From a virus, in the IMG/VR virus record IMGVR_UViG_3300010151_006606, positions 1 to 21,098 of that record: a stretch of 21,098 nucleotides of DNA, one strand, 5' to 3'. Position numbers and translations under genes: made by a program. The notes under the pieces were generated by a model, which had not been told where the DNA came from, made no database searches, and saw nothing but the letters and a program-made list of their open reading frames with translations. Every line of letters starts with the position of its first letter. The first letter of the stretch is position 1. Shown here piece by piece: positions 1-9,040 of this stretch.

Positions 1-177
1 AAGACCTCCCCCGAGAATCGAATCCAGAGTTTTTAAACCTACAGGTATTCGATCAACCTCAAGGGAACTGTCTCCCGGTAGAAATATGACCTTTTCACTG
101 GTGCTATTCTGGTTAATTAGTTCCACTACTTCTGTAGCAGACTTGAGTGGAGCTACACTAATAGCTTTCTTGGCCAT
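1..177 (-). CDS. RecA/UvsX-type recombinase, N-terminal fragment (cut by window edge)
   Basis: Only the first 59 residues are inside the window; the gene continues past base 1. The segment ending in VDRIPVGLKTLDSILGGGL matches the conserved stretch just before the Walker A loop in RecA, RadA and phage UvsX (compare the RecA pattern I-x-T/S-G-x-x-x-L-D-x-x-L-G-x-G-G-L). Such proteins form ATP-dependent filaments on ssDNA and catalyse strand exchange. The ATG at 177-175 has AGGA seven bases upstream. It is the last gene seen of the run polymerase, coiled-coil protein, UvsY-like, SSB, recombinase, which supports a recombination role. The catalytic core is not visible, so RecA-like versus UvsX-like cannot be settled here. 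Confidence 0.8.
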   Translation of the reverse strand, partial: MAKKAISVAPLKSATEVVELINQNSTSEKVIFLPGDSSLEVDRIPVGLKTLDSILGGGL

Positions 178-193
178 TGTTATATCCTATATA

Positions 194-1270
194 TTAAAAG
201 GGAATATCATCTGCAGAGATTTTACCACGCAAGGCGTCACGGTATTCATCTACAGACCACTTAATGCTAGTTCTAAGTCCTCTCTCCTTACATAAAGAAG
301 CGAGTTCTTTTTTTGTCATAGAGTCGTAGTTGTCTTCTTCAGAAAGGGTGGCTTCCTCTACGAAGTGATTTCCTTGTAAAAGTTCTTTCCATTCGCTGAT
401 ACCAGTATCATCAGGAACGAAACCGTGGTCATCGATAGCACTTTGGTTTGCAGTTCGGAAAAAATCTTTGTCCCCTCCTTGGAGGATAGTCCTCAGTTGG
501 GGGTTGGTGTATAGAGTTCCTGGTTCTGTCCATTGGTGGTCTTCAGAAACAAACGTCCAAACGTCTGGAGCTTTCTCAAGTATAATATCGATAGCCTCAT
601 CACTCTTTGCAATAGGACCTGCTTCGGAGTTAGAGTAGGTAACCTTATATTCCACATCAAAAATCTGAGGTCCGGTTTTCTCTTTCTGTACGTAAACAGG
701 AAAACCTTCTTTAGGGTGATTAAAACAACCTCCAAAGCGTCCGTTCATGAAACATTCTTCAAGTTGTTTTCTAACCATAGCCCCATAGATGAAAACCATT
801 AACTCCCCATTATAGATAACAGGGGAAAAATATTTCTTTTTAGCTAAGTAAAACTGGTTTTCTCGCTTGTTTCTTTCTTGAGAGCGGTAGTCTCTCTTCT
901 CCTGCCAGTCTGAACCGGGTGCCATATCCATTAACTTTTTCCACTCGGTACAGATATAGCACTCTTTTCCGTATTTTTCTGAGCACGTAGTGACAACTGT
1001 CAGAGGTTTTCCGTCAGTACGTTTCATGGTGGGGTGTGCGATATAATGATAGGCAATATCAGCATAAAACCAATTTTCAGTTTCCGTTGACGGTATAAAC
1101 CGTAGTTTGTATTCCTGAGAAAAATCCTTGATTCCTAGAATGGGGGCTCCCATTACTGTTCCACCAGCAGGTTTTTTCTTATTTCCCGCTTTTTCCTCTT
1201 CAAGTTTTTCGTTTAGATATTTAACTTTTTGTGCGTAAGATGTTCCATACTTGGCATATTTGTCGCTCAT
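194..1270 (-). CDS. gp32-like single-stranded DNA-binding protein with SAP-like helix pair and DDIPF tip
   Basis: A 358-residue protein that probably coats ssDNA during replication and recombination. The central region resembles the zinc subdomain of T4 gp32: candidate ligands are H75 or H79, C96, C104 and C107 (C-X7-C-X2-C), within an aromatic- and lysine-rich region likely to be the OB fold. Residues 318-349 (MTKKELASLCKERGL followed by a second helix) look like a SAP/HeH DNA-binding helix pair. The last five residues are DDIPF, the same as the protein-docking tip of bacterial SSB, preceded by an acidic stretch near 309-317. The ATG has AAGGAA about nine bases upstream. It lies between the UvsY-like gene and the recombinase, as expected of a recombination loading unit. 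The SSB call is from motifs and context, not alignment. Confidence 0.75.
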   Translation of the reverse strand: MSDKYAKYGTSYAQKVKYLNEKLEEEKAGNKKKPAGGTVMGAPILGIKDFSQEYKLRFIPSTETENWFYADIAYHYIAHPTMKRTDGKPLTVVTTCSEKYGKECYICTEWKKLMDMAPGSDWQEKRDYRSQERNKRENQFYLAKKKYFSPVIYNGELMVFIYGAMVRKQLEECFMNGRFGGCFNHPKEGFPVYVQKEKTGPQIFDVEYKVTYSNSEAGPIAKSDEAIDIILEKAPDVWTFVSEDHQWTEPGTLYTNPQLRTILQGGDKDFFRTANQSAIDDHGFVPDDTGISEWKELLQGNHFVEEATLSEEDNYDSMTKKELASLCKERGLRTSIKWSVDEYRDALRGKISADDIPF

Positions 1271-1287
1271 TTTTTTAATTCCTTTTT

Positions 1288-1689
1288 TTAGTCTAGAAAT
1301 GACAATTCGCTTCGTTTAAGTGCGCCATAGGATTGAATCATCCCACCTTTGATGCTGAACGAATCGAAAACTTTTGTCCAAAATTCCACTTCTTGTTTTT
1401 TTAGTTCCACTTTTTCCTCCACCGGAACCATATCGACCAGAACCTTAGCTTTTATCCGGTCTACCGTCCATTTCTCCCCTGTAGCTTCCAAAATTTTCCT
1501 CAAATCAAGAACTTTCTGTGCCTCCATTCGTTTATACATCGTTTCCAACTTACGAAATTCCGCTCTAATCTGGTTCAGTTTCAGACCGTAACTAAATACT
1601 GTAGTTGCATGTCTTTCAAATTCCCATCTCAGGTTCTCTCCGTCAAACTGGAGTTCCTCTTCTATTTTAGCTATCACATCGCCATCCAT
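1288..1689 (-). CDS. UvsY-like recombination mediator
   Basis: A 133-residue mostly helical protein. Its length and pattern resemble T4 UvsY (137 residues), which loads UvsX onto gp32-coated ssDNA. Shared features, judged from memory of UvsY, are an N-terminal EEEL helix, a D-x-x-x-L-x-x-E helix continuing into Y-x-x-x-L, a central charged region with V-D-R-I, and a C-terminal helix with EFWTKVFDSF where UvsY has a similar Y-W-x-x-x-x-D segment, then an I-x-S-x-G step. It sits directly between polymerase-linked genes and the SSB and recombinase genes, which are its expected partners. The ATG at 1689 follows the upstream stop by three bases, with GAGG about nine bases before it. The similarity is low and needs profile confirmation. 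Confidence 0.6.
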   Translation of the reverse strand: MDGDVIAKIEEELQFDGENLRWEFERHATTVFSYGLKLNQIRAEFRKLETMYKRMEAQKVLDLRKILEATGEKWTVDRIKAKVLVDMVPVEEKVELKKQEVEFWTKVFDSFSIKGGMIQSYGALKRSELSFLD

Positions 1690-1692
1690 CGC

Positions 1693-2043
1693 TTACACCC
1701 TCTGAATTAAGGAAGGTTCAGTCTCCTCCTGCGCCTCAGCAATAAGCGTATTTATCGCTGTAAACACAGATTTCTCTGACTCGCTAAATCCAGGGTTTTC
1801 TAAATGCACCTGAACATAGGAATCGAACGTTATCTGAATCTCTTCCAACGTTATTCCACTACCCGCTCCTCCGGTTACAACCTGCCTCAGATTATTTATA
1901 ATATCTAAGGCAGGTTTCATAAATAGACCACTGGTGGTGAGTTGAACAATCATAGCCCCTTGGAGACCTTGAAACTGTTTTTCCAGATTGTCGTACTTCC
2001 CTTTCAACTCTTCATTCTCTTTAGTCAATTCTTCTACTGTCAT
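1693..2043 (-). CDS. Unknown small protein with N-terminal coiled coil
   Basis: A 116-residue protein not recognised as a known family. Residues 2-27 (VEELTKENEELKGKYDNLEK) form a clear heptad-type coiled coil, so it probably oligomerises. A short hydrophobic segment follows around 30-45, then a glycine-rich turn and an amphipathic, acidic C-terminal half. I place the start at the ATG at 2043 rather than at an in-frame ATG 15 bases earlier, because GGGAGG lies seven bases upstream and the ATG overlaps the polymerase stop as ATGA, the usual sign of translational coupling. Lying between the polymerase and the UvsY-like gene, it may be a replisome accessory factor, but nothing in the sequence proves it. 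Confidence 0.75.
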   Translation of the reverse strand: MTVEELTKENEELKGKYDNLEKQFQGLQGAMIVQLTTSGLFMKPALDIINNLRQVVTGGAGSGITLEEIQITFDSYVQVHLENPGFSESEKSVFTAINTLIAEAQEETEPSLIQRV

Positions 2044-4091
2044 TTTGCATCCTCCCATGTAAAGGCTATGTCCCCATCAACTTCTAGGGGTACATTTAAA
2101 ACGTCGCTATAGGCATTCACCATAAGTTCACACATTAGGGTTTTACACTCCTCTGCGTGACGTATAGGAGCCTCAGCGACCAACTCATCGTGAATCTGTA
2201 ATAACTGTTTAAAACCCATTCTTCGTAAGTCGGCATTTTGATAAATGTCAACTTGCGCTTTCTTGATCAGATCTCCTGCGCTCCCTTGGATGGGAGTATT
2301 ATAACTCACACGTTTGGCGTGGGAAACAGCTTTGAAGACCTTTCTCTGAGAATCCGTCGCCTTATCATAATGAACTTTAGGTATCGGTAGTTTAATCTCT
2401 GGAAGATACCGTCGGCGTCCCGATAGTGTGAGAACATAACCGTAGGTTTTAGCAAACGCTATCTGACTATCCATATAATTTTTTACATCTGGATAGGCTT
2501 CAAACCAATTTGCGATAAACAGCTTGGCATTCTCTTCAGAACAACCAATTGTTTTTGAAACTCTGTGCCAGGAAGTTCCGTAAGGTATCCCAAAGTTTAA
2601 AATTTTAGCTGTGGATCTTTTGTCATTATGTAGCTTTTTTACATCCTCCACAGCACACGGGAGGTTAAATGCTTTTTTCGCGGTAAAGCTATGAAGGTCA
2701 AAACCTTCTTGAAAGGCTGTAAGTAAGTTTGCATCACAGGAAAAATGGGCAAGAATTCTGAGTTCTAACTGGCTGTAGTCAGCAACAAGCAATGCATGTC
2801 CGGGACGAGCAACGAAAGCTTTACGGACACGATAAGGGTCTTTAGTAGCATCTCTTGGAACATTCTGGAGGGTGCCACACAAACCCCGAGAATTTTTACG
2901 TCCACTAATCCTCCCTGTACGGAGAATTGGATTCCAACTAGTATGAGCCACGAATATTGGTTCATCGTTACAAAATTCCGGTTCGCCACTGCCTAAGTAG
3001 CGATCAATAAAGTTGCGCTTTAACGTCTGGTTTTGCTTGCCTTGCACGATGATTTCGGCTGCACGGCAATTTTCTTCGGAAAGCTTTCGTAACACTTCTG
3101 TATTTACAGAGGGTACTCCCTCGTTCCACCCCTGCTTAGGGTCGGGTTTACCTAATTTAAATGGTACATGAGGTTTAGAGCATCCGCAACTTTTATCTAC
3201 TCCTGTCGCCTCATTTAGCCCATGACGGAAAAACAAGTGTGCTAGTTGTTTGTTACTAGTCATCATCACATCCGGTGAAATATCTGAATCCCAAAGATGT
3301 TGATTCCTTAGTATGGATACTTCCATCTCTTTATTCGTTTTTTCAAGGAAATCCATATCCAGCCTAATTCCTGTCTCCTCTAACTCATCCCATAACAACC
3401 AGAGAAATGGTCGATCTACCTTTAAGTAGGTGCTCCAATAACCTCGGTTTTTTAAACGTTCTTTTAAAGACTGATAAAGATGGAACGTTCCCCACGCATC
3501 GAGTCCAGCATAATGGATGGCGTCCGAGCGGTTAAAGCCCGGAGAATCAGGCTTCTCCAAAACATCCCACATAGGTAGTTTAACGGGGGTTTTTCTATCT
3601 GGTAGGCGATAAAACCACACGTCTGCAAAATCAGTAGTCTTTATCCCGAATTTAGATGCCAATTGGTGTTTTAAACCAAGTGATCCTTTTTTCTGATCCT
3701 GTTCGCAATCCTCCAGCCATGCAAGATAAAGGGTGTCAGCGTAGTAACCCTGAAAATCCATTGGGAAGTGTTTATTTTTTAAAATGACTTTCGCGTCAAA
3801 GAGTAGATTATGACCGATCTTTTTATGATCGTTTGACGCAAACCAGGGGGAGAGATATCTGATCAGATCACCCTTTACTACAAAAGCTCTTTCTGGAGAA
3901 AACGTGAAGGAGGAGAGTATGATTTCACAATTATCAGGACATATGGTAGGGAATCCTGTTACAGGGTCAGAAATTTCTGTGTCAAAGGCAGCTACTTCGG
4001 ACTCCATGAGGTCTTCGAGAAGTAGTTTAACGCCTTCTATCGTATCTAAATAGATACAATCCCACTGTAAACTCATCGCATGATTTGACAC
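2040..4091 (-). CDS. Family A DNA polymerase with 3'-5' exonuclease domain
   Basis: A 683-residue replicative polymerase of the Pol I/T7 type. The proofreading exonuclease motifs are intact: D37-x-E39 (Exo I), N95-xxx-D99 (Exo II) and Y194-xxx-D198 (Exo III). The polymerase motifs are intact: motif A DYSQLELR at 438-445, the O-helix R492-xxx-K496-xxx-F500-xxx-Y504-G, and motif C H634-D635-E636. There is no 5' nuclease domain, as usual for phage enzymes. F500 at the position equivalent to E. coli F762 predicts discrimination against dideoxynucleotides. A cysteine- and proline-containing insertion (about 301-325, with CGC) lies in the thumb region. The start is a GTG at 4091 with GAGG ten bases upstream; an ATG at 4076 is the alternative. 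It starts five bases after the Cys4 gene and overlaps the next gene by four bases. Confidence 0.96.
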   Translation of the reverse strand: MSNHAMSLQWDCIYLDTIEGVKLLLEDLMESEVAAFDTEISDPVTGFPTICPDNCEIILSSFTFSPERAFVVKGDLIRYLSPWFASNDHKKIGHNLLFDAKVILKNKHFPMDFQGYYADTLYLAWLEDCEQDQKKGSLGLKHQLASKFGIKTTDFADVWFYRLPDRKTPVKLPMWDVLEKPDSPGFNRSDAIHYAGLDAWGTFHLYQSLKERLKNRGYWSTYLKVDRPFLWLLWDELEETGIRLDMDFLEKTNKEMEVSILRNQHLWDSDISPDVMMTSNKQLAHLFFRHGLNEATGVDKSCGCSKPHVPFKLGKPDPKQGWNEGVPSVNTEVLRKLSEENCRAAEIIVQGKQNQTLKRNFIDRYLGSGEPEFCNDEPIFVAHTSWNPILRTGRISGRKNSRGLCGTLQNVPRDATKDPYRVRKAFVARPGHALLVADYSQLELRILAHFSCDANLLTAFQEGFDLHSFTAKKAFNLPCAVEDVKKLHNDKRSTAKILNFGIPYGTSWHRVSKTIGCSEENAKLFIANWFEAYPDVKNYMDSQIAFAKTYGYVLTLSGRRRYLPEIKLPIPKVHYDKATDSQRKVFKAVSHAKRVSYNTPIQGSAGDLIKKAQVDIYQNADLRRMGFKQLLQIHDELVAEAPIRHAEECKTLMCELMVNAYSDVLNVPLEVDGDIAFTWEDAK
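2051..2056 (-). promoter_or_regulatory. Ribosome binding site deciding the start at 2043
   Basis: GGGAGG on the minus strand, seven bases before the ATG at 2043, lies inside the last codons of the polymerase gene. It supports the short start and the ATGA stop/start overlap over the longer reading from 2058. Confidence 0.7.
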
Positions 4092-4096
4092 TTCTT

Positions 4097-4729
4097 TTAC
4101 GCCTCTTCAATCACTTTTCCCATTATCTGGTCTATTACACACATCGTAGTGGCTATTAAACCTGAAAAAGGGATTTCCACTTCTAACACTTCTTTTACAT
4201 ACTTTGTCACGTCTTTTGCTTTTACTGTAAAAAGGTGGCTTTGTAAAATTTTTCTCGAAACTTTTTCTAAAACACCTTCTCCTTGTATACTAACTCCCTG
4301 CTTAATATTAAACTTTTGAGTAGCATCAAAGAACTCTAACAGGCTGAAATACTGTTCTCTGTTCTCCATAAAAAACCGATCCTCAAAAACGATCTTTTGA
4401 GTTGAACTACTTTTTTTCTTCCATAACGTAGACTTCTGTACCAGTTCAGATAAACATTTAGGTCGAACTCTACATTGTTTACACATAACGTTATTCGGTG
4501 TGTAATAAGTCCCAAGGCACGACAGTTGAAGTGACGAGGGGTAAAAGGTGGGGAGAAAAGAAGAAAGTTCATCATCTATGTTGCTAGAATCAGTTGGAGA
4601 CAACCCAATGTTTTGAAAGAGGGTTTGTTTAAAAGCTGTCTCCCCTAGAGGTTTAAACTGGATGCACTGGTCTCCATTGGTGGCAATCCCTATAGAAAAA
4701 CGTTTTCTTCTTCTCTTCCCCATAACCAT
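4097..4729 (-). CDS. Unknown protein with a C-X11-C-X2-C-X5-C cluster
   Basis: A 210-residue protein of unknown function. The N-terminus is strongly basic (KRRRKR). Residues 71-92 hold four cysteines, C71, C83, C86 and C92, in the context SCLGTYYTPNN then CKQCRVRPKC. This compact arrangement suggests a zinc site or a [4Fe-4S] site; the C-X2-C-X5-C end resembles clusters in AddB/Cas4-type nucleases, but no nuclease motif is evident, so I do not infer that activity. The C-terminal third is amphipathic helix. It starts with an ATG overlapping the upstream stop (TAATG) and immediately precedes the DNA polymerase, so a link to DNA replication is plausible from position only. Confidence 0.75.
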   Translation of the reverse strand: MVMGKRRRKRFSIGIATNGDQCIQFKPLGETAFKQTLFQNIGLSPTDSSNIDDELSSFLPTFYPSSLQLSCLGTYYTPNNVMCKQCRVRPKCLSELVQKSTLWKKKSSSTQKIVFEDRFFMENREQYFSLLEFFDATQKFNIKQGVSIQGEGVLEKVSRKILQSHLFTVKAKDVTKYVKEVLEVEIPFSGLIATTMCVIDQIMGKVIEEA

Positions 4730-5778
4730 TACGAAACAATATCACTATCCATTAGTAATTCTACTAACGGGGGATACTCAGTACTACCATACATAAACCC
4801 ATCCAGAAGTCTATTAATCTGAGTAGGTGTAAGATCGAAAGTCCTTTCTAAACGAAAAGCGATCTCTTCATTGTCGCGACTCCCGTAAATGGAAGTAATT
4901 ATTTTTAGATCCTGTCCACTGAAAGATTGTTCTATTTCTTCCATAGAGAATTTCCAGTTATAACCTTTTGCTTTATCCATAAGCTCTTCCACAGATAAGA
5001 AATTTACCTCTTTAGGAGTTTCTTCCTCTACCGGGGGTGTTACGTCTGCAGATATAGAGGGGGTTGTCTCCGTTTGTTCTACCATTTGTTTGGCTACTTC
5101 CCTTACTAGTTGTGTGGCTTCTGCGGTTGTAGGTTCATCTACAGGAGCAGTCTTTTCGCCGTTTAAAGATTCAACCGAAGAATGCGCCTTAATGAGATCC
5201 CATTCTGCATTATCCGCATGGTGAATAATGTCAATTAGTGTGTTCTCCTCGACACCACGTCGCACTTTTATTTTGTGTTTTCGAAGATGGTGTAAGAGTG
5301 TTTGACGAGATACCTTACTATAGTCATTAGTTGTTGATTGAGGGGTAGGTTTTGCTTCCTCGACAACCGCTTCAGGCGTTTCAACATGTTGCATAGCTGT
5401 CTCTACTTCAACAGCAGTTTCAATCTCCTCATTTTCCAACTCATCCTCTAGAATAGGCTGACCTTCTTCGTAACTATAATAGATGATCGATCCGACAGGG
5501 TATTCCTGAATCTCTTGAGCTAACCCCTGGATAGCTTTAACACTCTCTGTTTCACCTACCTGAGTAAACTCCTTGTAGATAGAAGCTAACTCCTCCGTAG
5601 TAGAGAGAGATTGCTTGATTGATCCTGCATTAAGTCCGGCATCACCCACATGGAAACCCTCGGAGTCAACCCACTGAAGACTACCGTCAACAGGGACTAA
5701 AAAGACTGGTCTCTCTTCTGAATACATCCACACAAAATCTGTCACTTCTTTTTTAACTTCTCTTTTTCGTAAAGCCAT
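4729..5778 (-). CDS. Unknown multidomain protein with acidic linkers and a SAP-like segment
   Basis: A 349-residue protein not recognised. Seen in order: an N-terminal domain (about 1-105) with a basic start and aromatic-rich strands; an acidic glutamate/valine-rich linker (about 109-150); a SAP/HeH-like helix pair (about 153-188, with SRQTLLHHLRKHKIKVRR); a Thr/Pro/Glu-rich linker (about 205-258); and a helical C-terminal domain (about 260-349). The layout suggests a flexible DNA-binding adaptor. The start is the ATG at 5778, because AAGGAG lies six bases upstream; the longer reading from 5817 has no convincing site. It is the first gene of the run leading through the Cys4 protein to the polymerase, and is divergent from the RHH regulator. 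Confidence 0.75.
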   Translation of the reverse strand: MALRKREVKKEVTDFVWMYSEERPVFLVPVDGSLQWVDSEGFHVGDAGLNAGSIKQSLSTTEELASIYKEFTQVGETESVKAIQGLAQEIQEYPVGSIIYYSYEEGQPILEDELENEEIETAVEVETAMQHVETPEAVVEEAKPTPQSTTNDYSKVSRQTLLHHLRKHKIKVRRGVEENTLIDIIHHADNAEWDLIKAHSSVESLNGEKTAPVDEPTTAEATQLVREVAKQMVEQTETTPSISADVTPPVEEETPKEVNFLSVEELMDKAKGYNWKFSMEEIEQSFSGQDLKIITSIYGSRDNEEIAFRLERTFDLTPTQINRLLDGFMYGSTEYPPLVELLMDSDIVS

Positions 5779-5784
5779 TAGCTT

Positions 5785-5790
5785 CTCCTT
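5785..5790 (-). promoter_or_regulatory. Strong ribosome binding site deciding the start at 5778
   Basis: AAGGAG on the minus strand with a six-base spacer to the ATG at 5778. The next upstream in-frame ATG (5817) lacks such a site, so translation very likely begins 13 codons later than the longest reading frame. Confidence 0.8.
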
Positions 5791-5810
5791 ATTCTTAATA
5801 ATATCTCTTC

Positions 5811-5840
5811 TTGACATGTCTAGTTTAACTCTGGTATATA
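5811..5840 (+). promoter_or_regulatory. Sigma70-like promoter for the plus-strand regulator gene
   Basis: A perfect TTGACA at 5811-5816 is followed after 18 bases by TATATA at 5835-5840. It points at the only plus-strand gene, whose ATG is at 5880, leaving a leader of about 30 bases. The -35 overlaps the perfect 8-base palindrome GACATGTC (5813-5820). The TATATATA core is symmetric and could also serve as -10 for the divergent minus-strand operon, though no good minus-strand -35 is seen. Confidence 0.65.
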
Positions 5841-5869
5841 TAACTCAGACGCCATCTCGAACAGATTAT

Positions 5870-5873
5870 GGAG
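5870..5873 (+). promoter_or_regulatory. Ribosome binding site deciding the start at 5880
   Basis: GGAG six bases before the ATG at 5880. It overlaps an in-frame ATG at 5868, which is therefore unlikely to be the start. Confidence 0.7.
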
Positions 5874-5879
5874 ATAAAA

Positions 5880-6119
5880 ATGAAATTTGTCAAGCTAATT
5901 TCTCTAAAGGTTAATGATAAGGAAAAACCTAAAGAAAAACGGTCAGTTGGAAGACCTAAAATTTTTGAAGAGTTGAAAACATACGGTTTCACCTTCCCTC
6001 CTCTATACAGAAAAATCCTAGAATTGGTAGCTAAAGATCAGAAAACTTCAGCCTCCGCACTTATTAGAAATTGGATTGATGAGACATATAAAGATGAGTA
6101 CGAAGATAAAGTGAATTAG
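5880..6119 (+). CDS. Probable ribbon-helix-helix DNA-binding regulator
   Basis: A 79-residue basic protein, the only gene on the plus strand. After a lysine-rich N-terminus and a GRPK motif (24-27), residues 34-69 fit the ribbon-helix-helix (Arc/MetJ/CopG) pattern: a short strand TYGFTF, helix A (LYRKILELVAKDQ), a turn with small residues (KTSAS), and helix B (ALIRNWIDETYK). Such proteins bind operators as dimers through the paired strands. The ATG at 5880 has GGAG six bases upstream and a sigma70-like promoter at 5811-5840. It is divergent from the polymerase operon and convergent with the gene ending at 6116, overlapping its end by four bases. Control of the flanking operon or of itself is an inference. 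Confidence 0.7.
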   Translation: MKFVKLISLKVNDKEKPKEKRSVGRPKIFEELKTYGFTFPPLYRKILELVAKDQKTSASALIRNWIDETYKDEYEDKVN

Positions 6120-6376
6120 ACATCTAAACTCTCCGACCTGACTTCTACCAGACGTTTAAGTACAGCCAACGTATAATGGATGGCTGCTGCCCAATCTTCC
6201 CCCTCATTTGTCTCCACCAAGGCTTTAGCGCAATGTTGAAGATGGTCTTTTGAGATCTCGGTAAACGTGTTTATTCTCATATTTCGATCTACATTGAATG
6301 TATCGAAACGATTAACAATAGCGTGAATCTGTTCATGACTGACCAGACCCTTTTCAATAAATTTATTAGAAAACAT
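6116..6376 (-). CDS. Unknown 86-residue protein
   Basis: A small helical protein with no recognised domain. It has alternating hydrophobic and charged segments and several histidines and aspartates (for example SKDHLQHCAKALVETNEG), but no clear motif. Its ATG lies inside the end of the primase gene (11-base overlap) and has AGGA about six bases upstream, so translation is likely coupled to the primase. It is the last gene of replication block 1, ending against the convergent regulator gene. The tight packing argues for a real gene; the function is unknown. Confidence 0.7.
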   Translation of the reverse strand: MFSNKFIEKGLVSHEQIHAIVNRFDTFNVDRNMRINTFTEISKDHLQHCAKALVETNEGEDWAAAIHYTLAVLKRLVEVRSESLDV

Positions 6377-7361
6377 CTTTAATCCTTTCAGCTAGGGACA
6401 CTAGTTTTAACGGAGACACCTGAGTAGCTGTTCTCATGTACTCTTTTAATTCCGTCTCTTTGAAGGAACCAGGATCTCCGAAAGGTAAATTAACCAAATA
6501 AACGTTTAAACAACTTTCAGCTAAACGTTTAGCTAATCCTTTAGCGTCCTCATAAGCATCATTATCTAGCATAATATAAACCCTTCTAGGTTTTTTTCTT
6601 CGAATAAGCTCTTCTTGGAAATTCGACATATGTTTCCCAAATAAAGCCACACCTCTTTTACCACATCTTAAAGCATCAAATATACCCTCCGTTATAATCA
6701 TTTCCTCATCAATATTGTCGTAGTTAAAGATCAATCTGCTGGAATTAAAGCCTTTAGGATTTAAGACCTTGATATAACGGTTCATGCGTGACCATATTTT
6801 TTTCCCTGTTTTAGAAAGATCAGCCGGAGGATCATAAATTGATCGCGCCACAAATCCACGCAAAACAGACTCCATAAAAATAGGTACAATTAATCTGTCG
6901 CGCCATCTCCCCTCTTTACAGAAACCCATTCCGTAATTACACGAAATATCATAGGATATTTTACGTTTTTCTAAATAAGGGAAAATATAATCTCCAGAGG
7001 AAAACGGTATAAAACCTTCTGGAAGTTGAATAAACGTGTCTTCTTCTTTTTCCTCACGTTTTAAAAGTCCATCTTTTGAAAGCTTTTTTATCTTAGAAAA
7101 TAACATTTCAGCCTTTTTTTGGCCTGTTCCGTTAATAATTAACTCAGCTTCCTTAAAAGATACTCCTTTATGATAAGCTATTAAATTTTTAATATTTGTG
7201 GGACGGTTACACCTATGACAGAACCCAATACCTTTTTCTGTATTAAAATATAAATGTTTAAAGGGATTGGGGCAATCGCTGTAAATACAGTTTATACGTA
7301 TTTCTTTTTTTATTCTTTCTCCTATCTGCGGTATAATCTCTTCAATAATTTCTTCATACAT
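6366..7361 (-). CDS. DnaG-type primase (zinc finger plus TOPRIM)
   Basis: A 331-residue primase that should make RNA primers for the lagging strand. The N-terminal zinc ribbon uses C25, C30, C48 and C51 (C-X4-C, then C-X2-C in FCHRC). The middle part (about 126-200) carries the primase core with GMGFCKEGRWRDRLIVPIF. The TOPRIM domain shows the conserved glutamate E225 in IITEGIFDA and the metal-binding D266-x-D268 in IMLDNDAYEDAKG. It is shorter than bacterial DnaG and lacks a clear C-terminal helicase-binding domain, as in many phages. The ATG overlaps the upstream gene by eight bases, with GAGGA about eight bases before it. It should act with the DnaB-like helicase two genes upstream. Confidence 0.92.
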   Translation of the reverse strand: MYEEIIEEIIPQIGERIKKEIRINCIYSDCPNPFKHLYFNTEKGIGFCHRCNRPTNIKNLIAYHKGVSFKEAELIINGTGQKKAEMLFSKIKKLSKDGLLKREEKEEDTFIQLPEGFIPFSSGDYIFPYLEKRKISYDISCNYGMGFCKEGRWRDRLIVPIFMESVLRGFVARSIYDPPADLSKTGKKIWSRMNRYIKVLNPKGFNSSRLIFNYDNIDEEMIITEGIFDALRCGKRGVALFGKHMSNFQEELIRRKKPRRVYIMLDNDAYEDAKGLAKRLAESCLNVYLVNLPFGDPGSFKETELKEYMRTATQVSPLKLVSLAERIKDVF

Positions 7362-7686
7362 AAGGTAGTTCCTCTTGGATTCCTGTCAACTTATCTTCCA
7401 CTTCTCGTAAACGTCCTTCTATTATATTTTTTTTAATAGTATATAATCTCTTTAATTCCATTAAAGCTTTTACTTTACTTTTGTATATATTCTTTAAACT
7501 GTGGATAACAACCTCTCCATCAAGATCCCCATAACAAACGGTTGGAGTTACCTTTCGGGCGCAAAACTCTAATAACGCATACTCCTCATCTTCTTTTCTC
7601 ACTAGAGGGTTGGCGTTCGATTTTATGATATAATAGACATCCCCCGCTTCCAGAGGGTTAGCTAATCGTGTGTACATCGTCCACAT
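7354..7686 (-). CDS. Unknown protein between helicase and primase
   Basis: A 110-residue protein with no recognised family. The N-terminal half is probably beta-rich (AGDVYYIIKSNANPLV), includes two cysteines (42 and 51), and is followed by a long charged helical or coiled-coil C-terminus (about 62-105). Its start lies inside the last codons of the helicase gene; ATGs at 7686 and 7677 are both possible and neither has an ideal ribosome binding site, so coupling to the helicase is likely. Placed between the two halves of the primosome, it might adapt helicase to primase or load the helicase, but this rests on position alone. Confidence 0.65.
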   Translation of the reverse strand: MWTMYTRLANPLEAGDVYYIIKSNANPLVRKEDEEYALLEFCARKVTPTVCYGDLDGEVVIHSLKNIYKSKVKALMELKRLYTIKKNIIEGRLREVEDKLTGIQEELPYV

Positions 7687-9040
7687 CGCCTATAGGTACG
7701 ATTCTCTGTCTTTCCCAACGATAATAAACCTTTTCCATAATATTTTTCCTACCCCATCTATTTTTTGCTAAATATAGGCGTCCTTGCATCGGGGTACACA
7801 TACTTTCTTGGAAACTCTGACAAAGAGCCACTACAAAGGATGCTCTTTGAACTTTCTTTAAGCTGTCTCCTACCATACGTAATGTTACGGTTTCGGCTTC
7901 CATAGCGTCTCTGTTTGCTTGAGATGATGTCCACAGGACAACATTGTATTCCTCCGCAATTTGAATCAGACCTAAGTAGACCTGATCCATATCCGCATAA
8001 GGACGATCCGTATTCCCGCTATTTGGTATCATGTCGTCAGCACTATCAACGATTAAAACGTCAGGTCTGTTTCCGTCTGCTATTAACTGATTAAGCCAAT
8101 GTCTGATACGTAAAGGGGTAAGTGCTCCAGGACTAAATCTTTCATAATGAAGGGGATCTCCTGTCTTTTCCTTCATTTTTAAGGCAGTCTCTCTAACGAG
8201 CCAATCATTTTGGGGAATCATATGCATTGGCATGTCACAAAAAGCAGCATCATAGCGCAGACGTAATTCTTCTTTAGGACTCTCTAAAACGATATGAGCT
8301 ACAGTGTGTCCCGCTTCTACAGCACTTGCTCCGATATGAACCAAAGCTGAAGTTTTCCCTACGTTTGTTGCGGCTAAAACCACACACACATGCTGTTTTG
8401 ACATACCTCCGTACTGCGTATGAGTATCAAGAGGTAAGCCTGAAGGAACTACCTCGGAGTTAGCTGATTTTCTATGTAAAAGCGCATTGTCCGTAGACTC
8501 AACATAGCTCTCCGCTGTCTGCCCAAAGTTTAAACCGATAGAACAGATCCCTACCGCTTCCTCCTGCAAACCAGTACGGTCTCTGGAAGTAGCGCAGATT
8601 TCCACCATACGTGTAAGACGTTTCAGAATAGTTTGGTGACTCATCCAGTTCTGTATCATATCAATTGCAAAGTTCTCGTCAGACACAGGGTTATCTATTT
8701 CGTCGATAAACTCTGTTACAGTCCGGTAAACAGGGTCCGATAGCTCATTTTGGTTATAGCTCGTTTCTAATACAGTTAAAATAGATCTTTTTTCAGGACA
8801 GATCTTATAGATGTTGTAAAAGTCCATAGCAGATCTAGCCAACCACTTTAAGTGAGCGAAATCAAAGTGTTCTTCAGGTTTTAAATATACAGCTATTTTA
8901 GATAAAAAAGATCTGTTTTGATACAATAATCTTACTAAGTCTTCTTGATATCCTGGAGTTAATGCTTCAGGAACTAGGGCAGGTATTACCTCATGTGAGG
9001 ATTTTGAAGTCCTCTTCCGTTTTTTTAGGTACATAGACAT
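7658..9040 (-). CDS. DnaB/gp41-like replicative helicase
   Basis: A 460-residue RecA-fold hexameric helicase that should unwind DNA ahead of the fork. The helical N-terminal domain (about 1-180) is followed by a RecA-type core: Walker A ATNVGKTS (224-231), Walker B VLIVDS with D332, motif 3 TSSQANRDA (371-379), and the arginine-containing KNRWGR near 426-431, equivalent to the KNRxGP motif of DnaB. This is closest in style to T4 gp41 and other phage DnaB proteins. The ATG at 9040 is chosen over an in-frame ATG 30 bases upstream, because AGGG lies six bases before it and it leaves the preceding SF2 helicase gene without overlap. Confidence 0.92.
   Translation of the reverse strand: MSMYLKKRKRTSKSSHEVIPALVPEALTPGYQEDLVRLLYQNRSFLSKIAVYLKPEEHFDFAHLKWLARSAMDFYNIYKICPEKRSILTVLETSYNQNELSDPVYRTVTEFIDEIDNPVSDENFAIDMIQNWMSHQTILKRLTRMVEICATSRDRTGLQEEAVGICSIGLNFGQTAESYVESTDNALLHRKSANSEVVPSGLPLDTHTQYGGMSKQHVCVVLAATNVGKTSALVHIGASAVEAGHTVAHIVLESPKEELRLRYDAAFCDMPMHMIPQNDWLVRETALKMKEKTGDPLHYERFSPGALTPLRIRHWLNQLIADGNRPDVLIVDSADDMIPNSGNTDRPYADMDQVYLGLIQIAEEYNVVLWTSSQANRDAMEAETVTLRMVGDSLKKVQRASFVVALCQSFQESMCTPMQGRLYLAKNRWGRKNIMEKVYYRWERQRIVPIGDVDDVHTIS

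Follow-up and report, generated by a model that had tools for sequence, protein, structure and literature searches.

Gene organization of the locus

The window, by which we mean the whole stretch of DNA analysed here, is a virus fragment of 21,098 bases. Its replication genes, the SSB gene included, share the minus strand, and the gene series comprises a UvsW-like helicase, a DnaB-like helicase, a primase, a family A polymerase, a 121-aa protein, a 133-aa protein, the SSB and a gene cut by the contig end (Table 1). The open reading frame that the first-pass annotation had assigned to the SSB is real and lies on the minus strand, ending in ...RGKISADDIPF followed by the stop codon. Another public contig, 8,425 bp long, has 100% identity to the window over bases 1 to 8,394 and therefore adds no independent variation. 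The cut gene begins like a RecA/UvsX-type ATPase, a resemblance that is suggestive only: searches with its 59 residues returned no significant match.

Table 1. Features of the SSB locus, with positions in the window.
Feature	Position	Strand	Details and basis
gp32-like SSB gene (P0001)	194..1270	(-)	358 aa, stop codon included in the positions; ATG start; phrog_1192, family profile, AlphaFold2
gp32-like OB core, residues 45-268	467..1138	(-)	AlphaFold2 model, best PDB match RB69 gp32 core; family profile matches gp32 crystal structures
Putative zinc site, H75-x20-C96-x7-C104-x2-C107	950..1048	(-)	H75 kept in relatives
Acidic linker, residues 269-313	332..466	(-)	12 D/E, 2 K/R; pLDDT mostly low from 278 to 313
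HeH (helix-extended-helix, SAP/HeH-like) segment, about residues 314-349	224..331	(-)	Pfam SAP, AlphaFold2, HeH HMM
Terminal DDIPF, residues 354-358	197..211	(-)	Same residues as at the C-terminal tip of bacterial SSB
UvsY-like recombination mediator	1288..1689	(-)	133 aa, directly upstream of the SSB gene; family profile, AlphaFold2, Foldseek
Family A DNA polymerase with 3'-5' exonuclease domain	2040..4091	(-)	Context
Start of the next gene, truncated by the contig end	1..177	(-)	RIPVGLKTLDSILGGGL resembles the RecA/UvsX N-terminus

The gp32-like core and its putative zinc site

PHROG, a family profile and an AlphaFold2 model of modest quality all support placing the window SSB in the gp32 superfamily. 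The protein matches phrog_1192 (single-strand DNA-binding protein) at E=9.2e-10, and on its own gives no Pfam gp32 match. A profile of 80 family members reaches crystal structures of gp32 from RB69 and T4, at E values between 1.7e-7 and 1.7e-5, and Pfam gp32 is matched by 57 of these 80. The AlphaFold2 model has a mean pLDDT of 66 and finds the RB69 gp32 core as its best PDB match (probability 1.00, E=5.4e-3, TM 0.35/0.53), which is supportive but modest evidence for a gp32-like OB fold. His75 is invariant in all 80 aligned relatives, although it lies outside the search pattern, while Cys104 and Cys107 are part of that pattern and their conservation holds by construction. The zinc-containing gp32-like core proposed by the first-pass annotation is thus borne out by the profile searches, the model and the putative zinc residues His75, Cys96, Cys104 and Cys107, and profile search and structure prediction, the two checks it had named for the OB fold, lead to gp32 profiles and to RB69 gp32, respectively. 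A bacterial-type SSB was also considered and rejected, as no Pfam SSB-domain match was found up to E=10 and the core is of the gp32 type. The N-terminus is basic (9 K/R, 5 D/E), with a modelled helix at residues 4-28 and no clear KRKST-type (LAST) motif.

The gp32 of T4 and RB69 (Pfam PF08804, PHROG 1192/224) has an OB core, an H-C-C-C structural zinc, an acidic C-terminal part and a UvsY mediator, features with seen or predicted counterparts in the window SSB and its neighbor. The zinc spacing differs, being H-x12-C-x9-C-x2-C in T4/RB69 gp32 and H-x20-C-x7-C-x2-C in the window SSB, and T4 gp32 has neither an HeH segment nor an IPF tip. Its terminus is DLDDLLNDL (DDTDLDDLLNDL), in agreement with the earlier statement that T4 gp32 lacks DDIPF. 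The nearest named relative is the SSB gp098 of Pseudomonas phage nickie (about 24% identity), which shares the core, the histidine and an FGKPCEVC zinc motif, but shows no HeH segment and ends in DELDDLLED. The gp32-like SSB of the cultured Vibrio phage PVA3 (Mardecavirus) combines a gp32 core with an HeH-type segment, but has neither the zinc cysteines nor an IPF tip. Bacterial SSB, as in E. coli, has a terminal DDIPF identical to that of the window protein; the core is not shared.

The acidic linker and the HeH segment

Between the core and the tip, an acidic linker leads into a small HeH segment, which the first-pass annotation had described as SAP/HeH-like and placed at residues 318-349. 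Three lines of evidence place it at about 314-349. The Pfam SAP match at residues 314-335 (E=0.0046) is below threshold, with 17.0 bits against a gathering score of 23.9. Two helices are modelled by AlphaFold2 at 320-329 and 340-347 (pLDDT 55-74), and an HMM built only on the HeH segments of relatives (12 family members and one Vibrio phage SSB, with the window protein left out) finds the window segment at E=2.2e-4. The segment may bind DNA. At least 12 further zinc-bearing family members have an HeH segment, as does the cultured Vibrio phage gp32-like SSB. In the family they usually precede a C-terminal cysteine-rich module, which the window SSB lacks, and at the L065/L164, L165 and L168 loci a different acidic protein, whose gene lies downstream of that for the SSB, carries similar segments.

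The tails of the family are varied in other ways. Many of its SSBs terminate in a cysteine module of the form CPxGHxFGxDx..CxxCxxWxxC, and SH3/KOW-like stretches and DnaJ-like CxxCxGxG motifs are visible by eye as modules inserted in the tails of L075, L091, L070 and L127 and of L032, L108, L114 and L076. Elsewhere in the window, a 210-aa protein (4097-4729, minus strand) carries a four-cysteine motif, CLGTYYTPNNVMCKQCRVRPKC, that resembles the C-terminal cysteine module of other family SSBs, and a 362-aa protein (4729-5817, minus strand) contains a stretch, SRQTLLHHLRKHKIKVRRGVEENTLIDIIHHA, that looks HeH-like by eye and is absent from the HeH HMM matches shown.

Recurrence of the DDIPF tip among relatives

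We searched for relatives in viral contigs with a DNA pattern for the zinc motif [FY]GKxCxhC. Two such DNA patterns gave a survey set of at least 113 usable complete zinc-bearing sequences, the window SSB included, to which a follow-up scan with L065 contributed L164-L169; the non-redundant set among the matches listed has 94 members. No relatives at intermediate identity to the window SSB were found among the matches listed from viral contigs, and scans of genome contigs and plasmids found no relatives. Single-protein scans with the window SSB, the polymerase and the UvsY-like protein found only one contig, of identical sequence.

The last five residues of the window SSB match the bacterial SSB tip exactly, as the first-pass annotation had claimed. 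Ends of the form [DE][ILVM]PF occur in five of the 94 non-redundant members listed, the window SSB included, where composition shuffles predict 0.004. The bearers are P0001 (the window SSB), L028, L065/L164, L165 and L112; P0001, L065, L028 and L112 end in [DE][DE][ILVM]PF and L165 in EADIPF. The window SSB prompted the survey and has to be set aside in counting, which leaves three other lineages (at least three besides its own carry the tip) and a Poisson probability of about 1e-8 for three. A tree of the core, in which the window SSB sits on a very long branch, requires four changes for the five tip rows, at least three of them forced by starred branches. On this tree we dropped the idea that the family shares the tip through common descent; the tip looks convergent, having arisen independently in several lineages.

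A comparison of L065 and L165 shows how the tip behaves when the rest of the tail does not last. Their cores are 73% identical and their tails are unrelated, that of L065 being acidic and that of L165 Lys-rich; DIPF is present in both, encoded by GAC ATA CCA TTT in L065 and by GAC ATC CCG TTT in L165, with synonymous differences at ATA/ATC and CCA/CCG. The close kin of L065, L167 and L168, are without the tip, as are the majority of the listed relatives, so the tip is dispensable and is not a family trait. Conservation of the last five residues, which the first-pass annotation had taken as the measure of its proposal, is therefore not found across homologues; what does stand is recurrent gain, together with retention during tail replacement, which argues for a function of the tip. 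From these sequence patterns, the tip seems to be gained and lost, and selected where present, and the recurrence of the DDIPF ending suggests a real docking tag.

The first-pass annotation had also described the protein as joining parts not usually found together. The combination is indeed uncommon, but it is not unique: L028 has all three parts (core, HeH segment and DDIPF), and the HeH segment and the tip each recur in other members, as counted above. Among the papers searched, none combines gp32 with DDIPF. DDIPF-like motifs also lie inside the acidic linker, rather than at the terminus, in the family SSBs L136, L158, L075 and L123. Terminal PF tails (DDLPF, NDLPF, INLPF, DHDIPF and similar) are present on other proteins of related phages, namely family A polymerases, split polymerases (on their exonuclease part) and a clamp loader (L022:5321-7993, L128:1108-3774, L020:8625-11015, L041:3938-6604; L036, L039, L056, L058, L076; L108:281-1243).

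A UvsY-like neighbor

The 133-aa protein encoded next to the SSB belongs to PHROG 2058/1069, which is annotated as unknown function. Its family profile matches the T4 UvsY crystal structures at E=1e-7, and its AlphaFold2 model (pLDDT 96.5) returns UvsY for all of the top 21 PDB matches in Foldseek, with TM values, normalized by query length, reaching 0.76. By profile and predicted fold, the neighbor is UvsY-like. Such a gene is present at 100 of the 113 listed SSB loci, in 94 cases within 1.3 kb upstream and in 81 within 250 nt, and it is equally present at loci whose SSB lacks the tip. These results link a widespread unannotated family to UvsY and identify it as a standing neighbor of gp32-like SSBs.

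Proposed function of the tip

We read the window protein as an SSB for replication and recombination that belongs to the T4 gp32 superfamily, probably produced from the same gene block as a UvsY-like mediator of its own. By homology, the zinc-bearing OB core would coat ssDNA, and the acidic linker would bear the small HeH module and leave DDIPF exposed as the free C-terminus. The peptide, apparently acquired by convergence in several phage lineages, would most likely work like the bacterial SSB tip, which is highly conserved among eubacteria and whose IPF end is needed for proper functioning and binds partners (PMC10143822). The Ile-Pro-Phe end would then dock in the pockets of SSB-interacting proteins, bringing them to the coated ssDNA of the phage. 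Host SSB-interactors are the likeliest receptors, because phage tails with no relation to one another appear to have arrived at exactly the peptide that nearly all bacteria carry, which points to a receptor already existing in every host. We give this leading reading, a docking peptide for host SSB-interacting proteins, a probability of about 0.5. It is in line with the HK620 SSB, discussed below, whose tip recruits a partner. Several observations count against it. Most relatives, close kin of L065 among them, do without the tip, and the window SSB lies on a very long branch. The bacterial tip gains affinity also from its proximal acidic DFDD part (PMC10143822), whereas the window SSB ends in ISADDIPF, with two acids only. 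In addition, the PF-type ends that polymerases, exonucleases and clamp loaders carry in related phages hint at another shared receptor.

A phage partner is a serious alternative for the C-terminus, given the UvsY-like gene directly upstream and given that in T4 the A-domain at the C-terminus of gp32 is where UvsX and UvsY bind (PMC3016280). The tip and the HeH segment would in that case form the phage's own partner-docking end, a counterpart of the A-domain, and bind the UvsY-like neighbor, a RecA/UvsX-like recombinase or a phage helicase. There is precedent for a phage SSB whose tip recruits a partner: the NDYPPF tip of the HK620 SSB recruits Sak4, itself a phage protein, and this SSB, compared here by description only, is described as a tetramer with a tip resembling that of E. 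coli SSB (PMC5928155). However, a UvsY-like gene equally present without the tip cannot alone explain it, and a phage partner leaves the exact convergence on a bacterial sequence unexplained. We regard this alternative as possible but on the unlikely side. The PF ends of related phages raise another reading, that a PF-terminal docking peptide common to several replisome proteins binds one hub, for example the sliding clamp, and that the SSB tip is one instance of it. At related loci, for example, polymerases end in SADDLPF and VDDLPF, the exonuclease parts of split polymerases in NYNDLPF and GINLPF, and a clamp loader in DHDIPF; we take these ends to resemble clamp-binding hexapeptides. However, the window's own polymerase ends in FTWEDAK and the majority of the group's polymerases have no PF end, which makes a common hub improbable.

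T4 gp32 and T7 gp2.5 bind DNA with higher affinity once their acidic tails are removed (PMC5686142), and the window SSB has an acidic linker, so that the tail could be mainly autoinhibitory, with linker and tip covering the DNA-binding groove until ssDNA displaces them. This would account for the acidity, but not for convergence on IPF, and the L165 tail is Lys-rich and yet keeps DIPF; we consider it quite improbable that autoinhibition is the main role. That the tip is simply the neutral end of a variable tail would fit the different ends of most relatives. Against this stand the four other bearers observed, compared with 0.004 expected in composition shuffles, and the synonymous retention in L065 and L165; a chance origin was dropped on the shuffle expectation and is the least credible of the explanations considered.

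Docking of host SSB-interacting proteins has a further possible consequence. If the exact bacterial tip has evolved repeatedly on an unrelated gp32-type fold, host SSB-interacting enzymes may read phage ssDNA as SSB-coated, a form of hub-peptide mimicry that we put forward tentatively. Defence systems that read SSB might possibly also read mimic-coated phage ssDNA. A natural experiment is offered by pairs of close relatives of which one has the tip and the other lacks it. If the host-docking reading is true, gp32-type phages, so far credited with recruiting partners of their own, would in addition draw on the host SSB interactome through one short peptide mimicked by convergence.
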